A stretch of 32,315 nucleotides of DNA. Source: Alphaproteobacteria bacterium (GTDB lineage: Bacteria > Pseudomonadota > Alphaproteobacteria > Rhizobiales > Beijerinckiaceae). The stretch lies in assembly GCA_016869555.1 (NCBI GenBank), contig VGDY01000021.1:1-32315 (forward strand), read 5' to 3'. Shown piece after piece: positions 6,964 to 32,315 of this stretch. The position numbers and the translations under genes are program-made. Under the pieces are notes generated by a model. It made no database searches and was not told where the DNA came from. It saw nothing but the letters and a program-made list of their open reading frames with translations. Positions within the stretch are counted from its first letter, which is position 1; the number at the start of each line of letters is the position of its first letter.

Positions 6964-9408
6964 ATGCCGACCTTCTCGCGCAATCTCAAGCAGACACTCG
7001 ACCGCGCGCTCGCTTCCGCCCGCGAGCGGCGCCATGAATATGCGACGCTCGAACATCTTCTGCTCAGTCTCGTCGAGGACGTCGACGCTTCGGCCGTTTT
7101 GCGCGCCTGCTCCGTCGATCTCGACGTTCTGACCAAGAATCTGCGCGATTATATCGATCGCGAGCTCGACAATCTGGTCAACGACGACGCCGACGAGTGC
7201 AAGCCGACCGCCGGCTTTCAGCGTGTGGTGCAGCGCGCGATCATCAGCGTCCAGTCTTCCGGCCGCGAGGACGTGAGCGGCGCCAATGTTCTCGTCGCGC
7301 TGTTCGCCGAACGCGAGAGCCACGCCGTTTATTTCCTGCAGGAGCAGGACATGACGCGCTACGACGCGGTCAATTTCATCAGCCACGGCATCGCCAAGCG
7401 CCCGGGTCTTTCCGACGCGAGCCGCGCCCCGCGAGGGGTCGAGGACGACGGCGAGCGCAGCGATGGCCGCGAGGGCCGCGAGAACGAGAGCCGCAAGAAG
7501 GAAGGCGCGCTCGAAGCCTATTGCGTCAACCTCAACAAAAAGGCGCGCGACGGTCGCATCGACCCGCTGATCGGCCGCGAGCCGGAAGTGCTGCGCACGA
7601 TCCAGGTGCTGTGCCGCCGGCAAAAGAACAATCCGCTGCTCGTCGGCGATCCTGGCGTCGGCAAGACGGCGATCGCCGAGGGTCTCGCCCGCAAGATCGT
7701 TTCGGGCGACGTGCCCGACGTTCTCTCCGGCGCGACCGTCTTCGCGCTCGACATGGGCGCGCTGCTCGCCGGGACACGCTATCGCGGCGATTTCGAAGAG
7801 CGCTTGAAGCAGGTCGTGAAGGAAATCGAGAATCACAAGAACGCGATTCTCTTCATCGACGAGATTCACACCGTGATCGGCGCCGGCGCCACCTCCGGCG
7901 GCGCGATGGACGCCTCGAATCTTCTCAAGCCGGCGCTGGCGCAGGGCGTTCTGCGCTGCATCGGCTCGACCACCTACAAGGAATACCGGCAGTATTTCGA
8001 GAAGGATCGCGCCCTCGTCCGCCGCTTCCAGAAAATCGACGTGAACGAGCCCTCGATCCCCGACGCGATCGAAATCATCAAGGGGCTGAAGCCCTATTTC
8101 GAGGAATTTCACAAGATCCGCTACACCGCCGATGCGCTGAAGGCGGCGGTGGAGCTCTCGGCCCGCTACATTCATGACCGCAAGCTGCCGGACAAGGCGA
8201 TCGACGTGATCGATGAAACCGGCGCGGCGCAGATGCTCCTCGCCGAGAACAAGCGCAAAAAGACGATCGGGCTGAAGGAGATCGAAATAACGATCGCGAC
8301 GATGGCGCGCGTGCCGCCGAAGACGGTCTCCAAGGACGACGCCGAGGTTCTCGCCCATCTCGACGAGACGCTGCGGCGCGTCGTCTATGGTCAGGACAAG
8401 GCGATCTCGGCGCTTACCTCGGCGATCAAACTCGCGCGCGCCGGCCTGCGCGACCAGGAGAAGCCGATCGGCTGCTATCTCTTCTCCGGGCCGACCGGCG
8501 TCGGCAAGACGGAGGCCGCGCGCCAGCTCGCGACTTCGCTCGGCATCGAACTCATTCGCTTCGACATGTCGGAATATATGGAGCGCCACACGGTCAGCCG
8601 GCTGATCGGCGCGCCGCCCGGCTATGTCGGCTTCGATCAGGGCGGTCTCCTGACCGACGCCATCGACCAGCATCCGCATTGCGTGCTGCTGCTCGACGAA
8701 ATCGAGAAGGCGCATCCCGATCTCTACAACATCCTGCTGCAGGTGATGGATCACGGCAAGCTGACCGACCACAACGGCAAGACCATCGACTTCCGCAACG
8801 TCATCCTGATCATGACGACCAACGCCGGGGCGCAGGATCTGGCCCGCACGCCGATCGGCTTTACCCGCACGCGCCGCGATCTCGACGACAGCGAGGCGAT
8901 CAACCGGCTGTTCGCGCCGGAGTTCCGCAACCGCCTCGACGCGATCGTGCCTTTCGGACATCTGCCGGTCGAGGTCATCAAGCGCGTCGTCGACAAATTC
9001 ATCATGCAGCTCGAAGCGCAGCTCGCCGACCGCAATGTCACGATCGAACTCACCGACGAAACGCGCGACTGGCTCGTCGAACACGGCTATGACGAAGCCA
9101 TGGGCGCGCGGCCGATGTCGCGGGTCATTCACCAGCACATCAAGACGCCGCTCGCCGATGAGGTGCTGTTCGGCCGGCTCAAGAACGGCGGCGCGGTGCG
9201 CGTCGTCGTGGTCGGCGACGACAGCGGCGCGAAGTCGCTCGGCTTCGTCTTCCCGGAAGGGCCGGTGCTGCCGCGGCCCGAGCGCGACATCATCGAAGCC
9301 GGCAAGAAACGCGCAAGCGCCGAAGGCCAGGAGCCCGCGGCCAATGCGTCGCTTGCCGACAATACGGACGCGGAATCCGACGCGCGGCCGGCGCCGTTGA
9401 AGAACTGA
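6964..9408 (+). CDS. clpA: ATP-dependent Clp protease ATP-binding subunit ClpA
   Basis: ClpA is the hexameric AAA+ unfoldase that feeds proteins to ClpP and works with ClpS. The 814-residue protein shows the N-domain ([16 protein letters not shown], residues 1 to about 140) and a charged linker. The first AAA+ module has Walker A GDPGVGKT at 228-235 and Walker B LFIDEIH. The second module has GPTGVGKT at 509-516, LLLDEIEK, and the sensor region MTTNAGAQ. The loop that docks into ClpP reads I-G-F (631-633) rather than I-G-L. Absence of the coiled-coil middle domain excludes ClpB. The length is slightly above the usual because of a hydrophilic C-terminal tail. Confidence 0.97.
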
Positions 9409-29233: not shown

Positions 29234-30301
29234 TCAGGCGGCGAGCAGCGCCTTCGCCTGATCGACCCAGCCGTCGCGCGCGATGCGGCCGTTCAGCTTC
29301 AATTCGGCGTCGAGCTTTTCGACATCGGCCGCGGTCATCGCGGCAAGCTGCCAATAGTGATAGACGCCGGCGTCGTTCAGTTTCTTGACAAGCTGCGGGC
29401 CGACGCCATGCAGCTTGGCGAGATCGTCCGGCGCGCCGCGCGGCGCGGAGAGAAGTTCGAAAGCCTCGGCGGGAGTCTCCGCATCCGCGCCGGCGGCGTC
29501 GACGGCGATCTCCTCGGCCGTGCGCAAATCTTCGCGGATCACCGGGCCCGGCTCGAGCGCCGGTTCGACCGCGGGAGCCTCCTCGGCGCCAAGGTCGACT
29601 CCCATCGCGCCGTGGCTGCGCGAAATGCCGTCGATCGCGGCGCGCGCGACGAGATCGCAATAGAGCGCGATGGCGCGGCCGGCGTCGTCATTGCCCGGAA
29701 TCGGATGGGTGACGCCGTCCGGGTCGCAATTGGTGTCGAGCACCGCGACGACAGGAATCTTGAGGCGGTTCGCCTCCTTGATGGCGAGCTGCTCCTTATT
29801 CGTGTCGACCACGAAAATCAGGTCGGGCGTGCCGCCCATATCCTTGATGCCGCCGAGCGCCTTTTCGAGCTTGTCGCGCTCGCGGGTCAGCAGCAGCCGT
29901 TCCTTCTTGGTGATGCCCGACGCGCCGGCGGAAAGCTGCTCGTCGAGTTTGCGCAACCGGTTGATCGAACCTGAAATCGTCTTCCAATTGGTGAGCGTCC
30001 CGCCGAGCCAGCGGGAGTTGATGTAATATTGCGCGCTACGCATGGCGGCCTCGGCGATCTGCTCCTGCGCCTGGCGCTTGGTGCCGACGAACAGCACCCG
30101 TCCGCCCTTGGCGACGGTGTCCGAAACCGTCTTCAGCGCCTGATGCAGCAGCGGCACCGTCTGGGCGAGATCGATGATGTGGATGTTGTTGCGGGCGCCG
30201 AAAATAAACGGCGCCATCTTCGGGTTCCAGCGGTGCGACTGATGGCCGAAGTGGGCGCCAGCCTCGAGCAGGCCGCGCATGGTGAAATCGGGAAGAGCCA
30301 T
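29234..30301 (-). CDS. rpsB: Small-subunit ribosomal protein uS2 with a C-terminal helix-hairpin-helix tail
   Basis: S2 binds the 30S head/body junction and is needed for S1 binding. Family segments are clear: [75 protein letters not shown] and the loop around [11 protein letters not shown]. The protein is 355 residues, about 110 longer than E. coli S2. After an acidic linker (about 240-290) the tail at 292-355 starts [17 protein letters not shown] and looks like a helix-hairpin-helix domain; similar tails occur on S2 in Rhizobiales. The start ATG 30301 follows GGAG, and the upstream frame to 30358 is not coding. Confidence 0.96.
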
Positions 30302-30643: not shown

Positions 30644-30694
30644 TCTCGACACATCAACTCATCTAGCGAATGCCTGAAAAAGCAGGAGCACCGC

Positions 30695-32221
30695 ATGAGA
30701 ACCTCGCCCAAACTGGCCGTCCCATTATACATCGTGACGCTTATCAGCGCATACGGCGGCGGATCTTCGTCAAATGCGATCGAATATCAGAGTTTTTTGC
30801 CTCCAGCGTTCTCCACTCAAAACAATCTTTTTTCCGCGGGGACAGTTCGAGGCTGGCCCGCTTACCTGGCGATGGGCGCAATCGGCGGCCCGAATGTTAC
30901 GCCGCCAACTGCGACGTCTCGCGGTGGCGATGATGACTTTGGCGGCAGGCCGGTCGACGTGGTCTTCAAATATGAAGGGGTAAACGGCAACGGAGACCCG
31001 GGGATCATCGATCCCCCCACTATTGAATTAAGAATGACAAACGACTTAACCACACTCAGCGCAATTAACAAGCATCCAATGCGCGTCGCAATCGTGGAAT
31101 ATACCGCTCAAATGAGTGGGGGGGCGGCTTTTACCGATTTCACGAATGTTTCAACGCCAGACCCAGCGAGTAGCGGCGGCACCTATCTTATGGCGCGGCA
31201 TTTTATTACCCTTGCAGGAGGCGTAATCGCGTTAAATGACAAGCCTGTTACTTACAATGGAGCAAAATATTATGGTTCTTTGATCATGAACCCTGATTTG
31301 ATGGGACAGATTCAGCAAGTCGACGCGATCGGCAACGCCAACCATGCGCTTCCGGCAAATTCGGTTAATATAGCCGTTGATCAAGCGTTATGTTTTCTGA
31401 CACAAACTCGTTCATATCACAACGTATATGAACCAAACACCTCTGGCGGGAAATGTCCCAGCCAGGGTGGACCGAAGTATTGTAACAAAACCTACGCCGG
31501 AACCCCCGTTAAAATATTAGAGACCATGTTCGCTGACGGGTACCCGGCATATAGTTTTTATAGTCCAACAGATGCATATTGGAATGTGGCGACCAACAAC
31601 TTGATCGGCGGAACAGGCAATACTTATAGTCAAGTCGGGACCTGGTTTAATAGCTGCATCGCTAGCCCGACCTATAATAAGAGCGTTTATATTAGGCCGA
31701 ATTTCCCCGCTGGTTTTGAAGGCTGGGTCCAAGCCAATATTTGGCTCATTCGCACATTCTCGCCGATTGGAAATGTCACATTCGGCTGGCAAGAGAATAT
31801 GTGGTCAGTCAGCGGCGGCGGTGGCGGTTGGTGGCCGCACAAGGACCTGACGGATTCCGAGATCGCGACCAAATATTCAGCGCCGGTGTCGAACTGGCTG
31901 AAAACAAATGCGCCAAGTTCCATAACCGCCGGCGCTCTTGGACGTAATTATGTTCCAGACTTTTTTGTTTTTGACCGCTATGAAACGGACGACAGCGCCG
32001 CGCCTGATCAGGCAACGCTCTATAATGCGCGGTCATGGGACAACTACCTGTCGGCTGTTGGGCAAGTCAGCAAAAACTTCAATAACATCCCTGTGATGAT
32101 TTGGCAGATTCCTGGTTCCCATATTCCCTATGTCGGCGAAGCAGAGCCGGAAACGTCCACGCCTGGAAACTATGTGTTTAGCACGGCGGTAATTGCTCAC
32201 CCCTGGTTTGGAGCGAGCTGA
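30695..32221 (+). CDS. Secreted protein of unknown function, possibly a glycoside-hydrolase-like fold
   Basis: I do not recognise this 508-residue protein with certainty. It begins with a signal peptide (hydrophobic residues 7-20; cleavage perhaps after Ala28). Gly, Asn, Ser, Tyr and Trp are frequent, as in exported enzymes and binding proteins. Four cysteines (in QALCFL, GGKCPSQ, KYCNKT and NSCIAS) may form disulfides. The C-terminal FVFDRYETDD (424-433) and VMIWQIPGSH (467-476) look like barrel strands with acidic residues of a glycoside hydrolase, which is an inference only. The start has AGGAGC before it. The DNA is AT-richer than its neighbours: positions 31021-31080 hold 21 G/C in 60. 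The end may be affected by a frameshift. Confidence 0.8.
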   Translation: MRTSPKLAVPLYIVTLISAYGGGSSSNAIEYQSFLPPAFSTQNNLFSAGTVRGWPAYLAMGAIGGPNVTPPTATSRGGDDDFGGRPVDVVFKYEGVNGNGDPGIIDPPTIELRMTNDLTTLSAINKHPMRVAIVEYTAQMSGGAAFTDFTNVSTPDPASSGGTYLMARHFITLAGGVIALNDKPVTYNGAKYYGSLIMNPDLMGQIQQVDAIGNANHALPANSVNIAVDQALCFLTQTRSYHNVYEPNTSGGKCPSQGGPKYCNKTYAGTPVKILETMFADGYPAYSFYSPTDAYWNVATNNLIGGTGNTYSQVGTWFNSCIASPTYNKSVYIRPNFPAGFEGWVQANIWLIRTFSPIGNVTFGWQENMWSVSGGGGGWWPHKDLTDSEIATKYSAPVSNWLKTNAPSSITAGALGRNYVPDFFVFDRYETDDSAAPDQATLYNARSWDNYLSAVGQVSKNFNNIPVMIWQIPGSHIPYVGEAEPETSTPGNYVFSTAVIAHPWFGAS

Positions 32222-32315
32222 ATGGCGCCGGAAATTTGACATGGGACTCCGCGGCTGATTCAAGCTTTGGATGACTCGCGAAGCACTTGATTCGCTTGAC
32301 AAGGAAACGCTTATC

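Follow-up and report, generated by a model that had tools for sequence, protein, structure and literature searches.

Glycoside hydrolases of family GH6 are built on a barrel of seven strands, with the Asp of an E-P-D motif as the acid, and in enzymes of clan GH-A strand 4 ends in an Asn-Glu pair and strand 7 in a Glu. In CfCel6B the catalytic acid Asp, D188, is presumably the one in E-P-D. The D188A mutant of this protein is described as having lost its catalytic acid Asp in the available part of the report (PMC7586223). In Salmonella, the GH18 gene STM0018 is given as chiA, and ChiA is reported to exit via a holin/peptidoglycan-hydrolase system, both in the accessible part of PMC10109510. The adjoining gene, STM0019, encodes a relative of the protein considered here. 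No description of the domain that they share was found in the available parts of the literature on chitinases, new glycoside hydrolase families, GH6 in connection with chitin, and STM0019. Word searches of PMC10109510 and PMC9049507 (main text, as far as accessible) did not return STM0019; in the records available, the string 'stm0019' belongs chiefly to potato papers by title, and also to a Fis-regulon paper (PMC3662779).

The window analysed here, 32,315 nucleotides long, is the entire contig C21 of genome G000, a draft of 295 contigs. At 30695-32221 (+) it contains an open reading frame of 508 codons with an ATG start. Sequence comparison indicates that this frame covers the 5′ three quarters of a gene into which an insertion sequence (IS) has inserted; the gene occurs whole, with 640 residues and at the same place beside rpsB, in Methylocystis sp. 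Bin_68_1 (locus L002, genome G027, JALHNQ010000001.1). We favour the reading, with a probability of roughly 0.55, that it encodes a horizontally acquired secreted glycoside hydrolase of an undescribed, GH6-like, chitin-linked family, broken here by the IS. The features on which the argument draws are as follows.

29234-30301, minus strand: rpsB, a conserved neighbour by which the insertion locus is recognised
30684-30688, plus strand: Shine-Dalgarno-like AGGAG, read directly from the sequence
30695-30829, plus strand: export-type N-terminal segment, assigned by eye, outside the conserved domain (similarity of the relatives begins at about residue 46)
30695-32188, plus strand: the first 498 of the 640 codons of the acquired gene, from its likeness to L002 and the same place beside rpsB
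31295-31297, plus strand: Asp201, directly after predicted strand 4; candidate acid, conserved as Asp in 22 of the 25 domains aligned
31973-31990, plus strand: Asp427-x-x-Glu430-x-Asp432 (FDRYETD), end of predicted strand 6
32102-32122, plus strand: Trp470-Gln471...His476 (IWQIPGSH), end of predicted strand 7
32181-32188, unstranded: 8-bp target-site duplication GCACGGCG, second copy at C44:128-135 on another contig of G000
32189-32315, plus strand: one end of an IS66-type insertion sequence; the contig ends within it
32189-32221, plus strand: ten final codons and stop of the listed frame (residues 499-508), supplied by the IS
32271-32315, plus strand: beginning of an IS reading frame, as read, cut by the contig end

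The initial annotation had described the gene as AT-richer than the rest of the window, without a recognised family and placed beside the rpsB operon, and each of these observations holds. Its G+C content is 0.510, compared with 0.611-0.702 in 15 other open reading frames of the window of at least 200 residues (pyrH added by hand, an antisense frame excluded). Codon use is likewise not typical of the genome, with a GC3 of 0.541 and a CAI of 0.409; CAI is 0.64-0.83 in 13 of the 15 comparison frames, and the remaining two, with values of 0.31 and 0.50 at normal G+C, are probably wrong-strand frames. No match was obtained in Pfam-A or NCBIfam at E ≤ 10, the top match in a PDB sequence search had an E-value of 0.84, and searches with profiles A1 and A5 also gave nothing useful. 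The frame adjoins rpsB/tsf, and its N-terminus, judged by eye, is plausibly of the Sec type.

Horizontal acquisition, also proposed at the outset, is well supported by this composition together with the distribution of the gene. In a kinship search of 101 genomes it was matched in two, both of the same genus; in the same-genus set of 29 genomes, 27 gave no match (five of these are less than 85% complete), and RpsB was found in 27 of the 29. Twenty-four loci (L071-L094) were usable for inspecting the site, after exclusion of the gene-bearing genomes G000 and G027 and of a partial locus in G015. At 21 of them the site is empty: the DNA located downstream of the gene in L002 (from 8058-8107 on) lies ∼270-410 bases upstream of rpsB, compared with ∼2.5 kb from rpsB in L002 itself. 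At the other three (L077, L093 and L094) this DNA is not found at that place. A search of G000 found no second copy besides the window's own; the A2 profile adds only a piece on C44 that belongs to the same gene. In a tree, L002 clusters with two alphaproteobacterial MAG copies (support 100/99). None of the relatives L003-L007 looks like a low-GC donor, since their GC3 values are 0.74-0.87.

Profile comparisons place the domain in a patchily distributed proteobacterial family for which Pfam has no model. Three branches are distinguished: branch 1, the subfamily of the window protein, which has a long insert (L002-L007 and L037-L042, the insert being shorter in L041 and L042); branch 2, STM0019-like and related proteins (L018-L021, L033-L035, L043, L046 and L049-L051); and branch 3 (L044, L045, L052, L066 and L068). 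A profile built from branch 3 only recovers all 20 other A5 members at E 3.7e-9 or better (Z 100,000), and hhalign of the window's subfamily (A4) against branch 3 gives a probability of 99.9%. Matches to the A2 profile occur in 9 of 398 genomes from the phylum (one of them G000), in 11 of 349 in the order of G346 and in 17 of 247 in the order of G464, in overlapping genome sets and with weak matches to degenerate copies counted. Among viral contigs, 28 pattern matches to A2 were found and none was confirmed.

The Salmonella relative STM0019 (EHB43725.1, serovar Infantis) lies immediately downstream of STM0018 and aligns with L002 residues 335-629 at 31.3% identity, and over an N-terminal piece. 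It differs in its length of 998 residues, with ∼560 extra at the N-terminus, in its annotation as hypothetical, and in having no counterpart of the long insert of the window's subfamily. The same domain is present in BEM41301.1 of Serratia marcescens pE10, which is annotated as a chitinase and has no Pfam match at E ≤ 1.

Several members have surroundings or records of their own interest. The pE10 relative (L018:1143-9782) has an IS91 family transposase gene on either side, vapC and a gene for a DDE-domain transposase are close by, and this setting is a plausible vehicle for spread. The Salmonella relative L021:2751-5747, which adjoins chiA, starts without a signal peptide evident by eye, and it might share the holin/peptidoglycan-hydrolase route of ChiA. 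Three Salmonella 'plasmid' records of 5-8 kb that carry the gene of this relative, which is of chromosomal type (L022, OX345454.1; OX345622.1; OX345182.1) may be mislabelled chromosome fragments, and AFYI01000001.1, held in a phage collection, is a 290-kb Salmonella contig. The Cupriavidus campinensis copy (L020:2633-4824) is split over two overlapping frames and may be frameshifted. Two of the three Andreprevotia genomes match the family; members from different branches occur together in G571 (L036, L046 and L068) and in G999 (L064 and L066), the genus being assigned because L036 is the L007 gene. Andreprevotia ripae IGB42_00302 rises on chitin and has only CBM5/12 modules recognisable, according to the accessible part of PMC8802321. 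It is not claimed as a family member, and the genome taken to be that strain gave no match.

The initial annotation had suspected a hydrolase barrel from the segments FVFDRYETDD and VMIWQIPGSH. Structure prediction agrees, giving an eight-stranded barrel with conserved acids in which these segments map to predicted strands 6 and 7. AlphaFold2 models of L002 (pLDDT 81.9, pTM 0.88) and of the 441-residue domain of L033 (pLDDT 83.5, pTM 0.89) both form alternating barrels of eight main strands. Across 25 aligned domains, which range down to 22% identity with L033, Asp427 and Asp432 at the end of strand 6 and Trp470 and Gln471 at the end of strand 7 are invariant (25/25), His476 is present in 24 and Glu430 in 19. 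Asn349 and Trp365 are also invariant, when polar and aromatic positions are considered. The motif around Asp201 is N-P-D in the window protein and E-P-D in branch 3.

From these models, the full protein would comprise an export-type N-terminus and a catalytic domain of ∼590 residues folded as an eight-stranded (β/α) barrel. The active site probably involves Asp201 from strand 4, Asp427 and Asp432 from strand 6, and Trp470-Gln471-His476 from strand 7. By analogy with GH6, Asp201 would be the proton donor, and Asp427 or Asp432, with Gln471 and His476, would place water or substrate, the presumed reaction being hydrolysis of a glycan.

The same residues bear on a different account, in which the barrel would have a non-catalytic role, as an accessory or chitin-binding domain that aids chitinases, hydrolysis having been lost or never present. 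In L028:673-3288 and L053:247-3219 a degenerate copy of the domain, which has lost the strand-6 and strand-7 motifs, stands ahead of a C-terminal segment that we take, by motif, to be GH19-like; Pfam calls no GH19 in that segment, and the genomes of these two may be Vibrio-like. The strand-4 Asp is absent from three of the 25 domains, and the Asp of the GH6 GExDG motif is not kept. Because of the missing strand-4 Asp and the degenerate copies before a GH19-like segment, some family members may only bind. The strict conservation of Asp427, Asp432, Trp470 and Gln471, however, is difficult to account for unless there is an active site, and in L002-L004 and L040 (584-640 residues) the domain makes up nearly the whole protein. 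We therefore consider a purely accessory role unlikely, and prefer a secreted glycoside hydrolase.

A remote relationship of the family to the GH6 cellulases is probable, judging from profile and motif comparisons. The GH6 model PF01341 matches L045 (E 0.002, 18.5 bits) and L068 (E 0.0039, 17.5 bits), both below its gathering score of 27. It is the sole glycoside hydrolase model to match any of the ten domains scanned at E ≤ 10, and it gave no match on the other eight, L002 included. Against a comparison profile of six GH6 sequences, hhalign scores branch 3 at 44.2 (E 5.6e-5, 75 columns) and A5 at 34.3 (E 0.0018). The controls for branch 3 reach 27.7 at most in 200 column shuffles, 21.7 with the reversed alignment and 14.5 with GH18; those for A5 reach 24.5, 18.0 and 15.0 respectively. 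The window's subfamily (A4) does not reach the GH6 profile (A6) directly by hhalign (probability 0.35, E 0.17), and direct HMM searches gave no significant match of branch 3 with GH6 (best E 0.22, Z 100,000).

Under relaxed extension past the 75 columns, the alignment of branch 3 with GH6 is co-linear over 359 columns. It pairs E-P-D with E-P-D, W-V-K-P-P-G-E-S-D-G with W-Q-L-P-V-G-H-V-N-G, and GH6 D-T-S-R-N-G with S-F-D-K-Y-G, the two Asp residues of the last pair lying two positions apart. The similarity to GH6 includes an E-P-D after strand 4 in branch 3, and N-P-D in most other members; the full E-P-D occurs in five of the 25 domains, all from branch 3. There are also differences. No A5 row has a G-E-x-D-G motif, the place being occupied by W-Q in 25/25 and His in 24/25, and the GExDG Asp is replaced (GHxNG, GSHIP); the strand-6 Asp is off register; the family models have eight strands; chitin modules and neighbours accompany the family; and the scores fall below the Pfam cut-off. 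Among the 50 Foldseek matches listed, 15 are GH6 enzymes (E 4e-5 to 3e-4), 13 of them by title and two that we assign to GH6.

The case for chitin comes from the company that the family keeps. CBM5/12-type modules were found by Pfam above the cut-off in 10 of 30 distinct members and in the other 20 not above it, in a scan that left the duplicates L036 and L024 uncounted and in which several proteins are cut by the fetched flank; three of the ten carriers (L028, L030 and L053) come from the group with degenerate copies. A ChitinaseA_N module is present in all five branch-3 members. In Andreprevotia lacus, two GH18 chitinase genes precede the relative, and one of them contains two CBM5/12 stretches, as does the relative itself; the host of one relative is named Andreprevotia chitinilytica. 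Other observations run counter to it: no CBM was found in the window protein or in L002, L003 and L004, the alphaproteobacterial members of the window's subfamily carry none, no chitinase occurs among seven neighbours scanned around L003, L004, L005 and L007 (of 10 proteins scanned at all loci), and GH18 is absent from G000. Because many members accompany chitin-binding modules or chitinase genes, we take chitin, or a glycan bound up with it, to be the likely substrate. Of the initial proposal of an exported enzyme or surface protein, the first part gains from these modules and neighbours, which point to a secreted glycan-active enzyme, and the second has no specific support.

The likeness to the GH18 chitinases (PF00704) is confined to the CBM5/12 and ChitinaseA_N partner modules and to the adjoining genes in two genomes. 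The domain itself differs from this DxDxE family; kinship with GH18 was considered and rejected, with no PF00704 match on the domain at E ≤ 10 and an hhalign probability of 0.1.

Weak kinship to GH6 would also fit a cellulase or β-glucanase whose CBM5/12 modules bind cellulose; endoglucanase Z is matched by the CBM_5_12_2 module of L028 (E 6.9e-8). Against such a specificity stand the ChitinaseA_N modules throughout branch 3, the GH18 neighbours in A. lacus and Salmonella and the host name A. chitinilytica, and we regard it as quite unlikely.

If the chitin-linked hydrolase that we prefer does act on chitin, the family would add a catalytic class to chitin turnover, which has long been studied as part of carbon and nitrogen cycling. 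It would then also supply a testable function for the uncharacterised Salmonella gene that adjoins the chitinase operon, and would connect the cellulase fold of GH6 with an N-acetylated substrate, in a setting where substrate evolution is directly testable. A broader proposal, which we put forward tentatively and with somewhat less than an even chance, is that this is a new glycoside hydrolase family, distantly akin to GH6, that moved from cellulose-type to chitin-type substrates and spread horizontally among chitin-digesting proteobacteria, including the Salmonella chiA locus; such a class of chitinolytic enzymes would lie outside the usual chitinase families.

Structural searches raise the further alternative of a clan GH-A member, similar to GH5, GH53 or GH35, with a Glu acid on strand 4 and a Glu nucleophile on strand 7. 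The top VIA-align Z-scores belong to GH53, GH5 and GH35 enzymes, with values of 15.7 and 17.7 at the head of two lists; for the L033 domain the best is the GH5 mannanase 1rh9 (Z 17.7, rmsd 3.8 over 290 residues). All of the 50 matches listed for this domain are glycoside hydrolases, bar two named glucosyltransferases; GH6 is not among the matches listed in either search, which excludes nothing. The best structural matches by Z are thus non-GH6, at identities of 5-12%, and we read the modelled likeness as one of fold, not of function. Foldseek gave 96 matches at E ≤ 0.001 with the 441-residue domain, the best being a designed Kemp eliminase that we presume to have a xylanase-type scaffold, and none at E ≤ 0.001 with the 595-residue model. 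Strand 7, however, ends in Trp-Gln in 25/25 domains, strand 4 is followed by Asp in 22/25 and not by Asn-Glu, and no GH-A Pfam model matches. Membership of clan GH-A is very unlikely, and the GH6-like hydrolase remains the preferred reading.

The interruption of the gene is seen at both of its ends. The reading frame and L002:6001-7923 are identical at 474 of the first 495 residues, and the DNA of the window and L002 is 93.8% identical over 1890 alignment columns, with the likeness ending at the IS boundary. A search of G000 located the missing 3′ part at C44:127-549 (92% identity over 141 residues), and past the IS junction C44 continues as the downstream DNA of L002. In the window, GCACGGCG is followed by GTAATTGCTCAC, the 12-bp terminal repeat of the IS (32189-32200), of which the inverted counterpart lies on C44, where GTGAGCAATTAC is followed by GCACGGCG.

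IS66 elements make 8-bp target duplications, and the element resembles this family in its 8-bp duplication, in its matching terminal repeats and in sequence common to an IS66-annotated locus. Over 80 bases its end shares 77.8% identity with a stretch of Methylosinus trichosporium pOB3b2 that lies ∼380 bases upstream of a gene annotated as an IS66 family transposase, and the frame at 32271-32315 resembles what we take to be IS66 TnpC starts. The same end recurs at 100% identity on three more contigs (C142, C217 and C59). It differs from described IS66 elements in being only partly assembled in G000: the ends are seen, but C21 and C44 stop inside the IS with no transposase gene, and PF03050 (IS66 transposase) is found on C55 and C70.

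The 508-residue protein of the initial annotation is therefore not supported as a natural gene product: the intact relative at the same locus has 640 residues, and the last ten codons are derived from the IS. The element entered after codon 498, and the 142 native residues lost include predicted strand 8. Without this strand and the conserved C-terminal residues, the listed protein is probably no active enzyme. Against L002, dN/dS is 0.020/0.225 for the first 495 codons and 0.049/0.29 for 144 codons of the 3′ part, so purifying selection acted on both halves of the gene until recently, and the G000 copy is probably a recent pseudogene. That the interruption is an assembly artefact, with a repeat run into an intact gene, is highly improbable: G000 is a draft with an estimated contamination of 8.61% and the contig ends in a repeat, but the 8-bp duplication and matching inverted ends mark both junctions, which lie on two contigs, and C44 carries on with the expected downstream DNA. 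At a single mapped position, the window thus gives a clear example of a gene that was gained and then inactivated by an IS.

The neighbouring RpsB (29234-30301, minus strand) has a C-terminal extension whose final ∼110 residues are matched at a second place in 20 of the 29 same-genus genomes. This second place consists of open frames of 243-332 residues, as at G000:C29:4455-4781 (40% identity).
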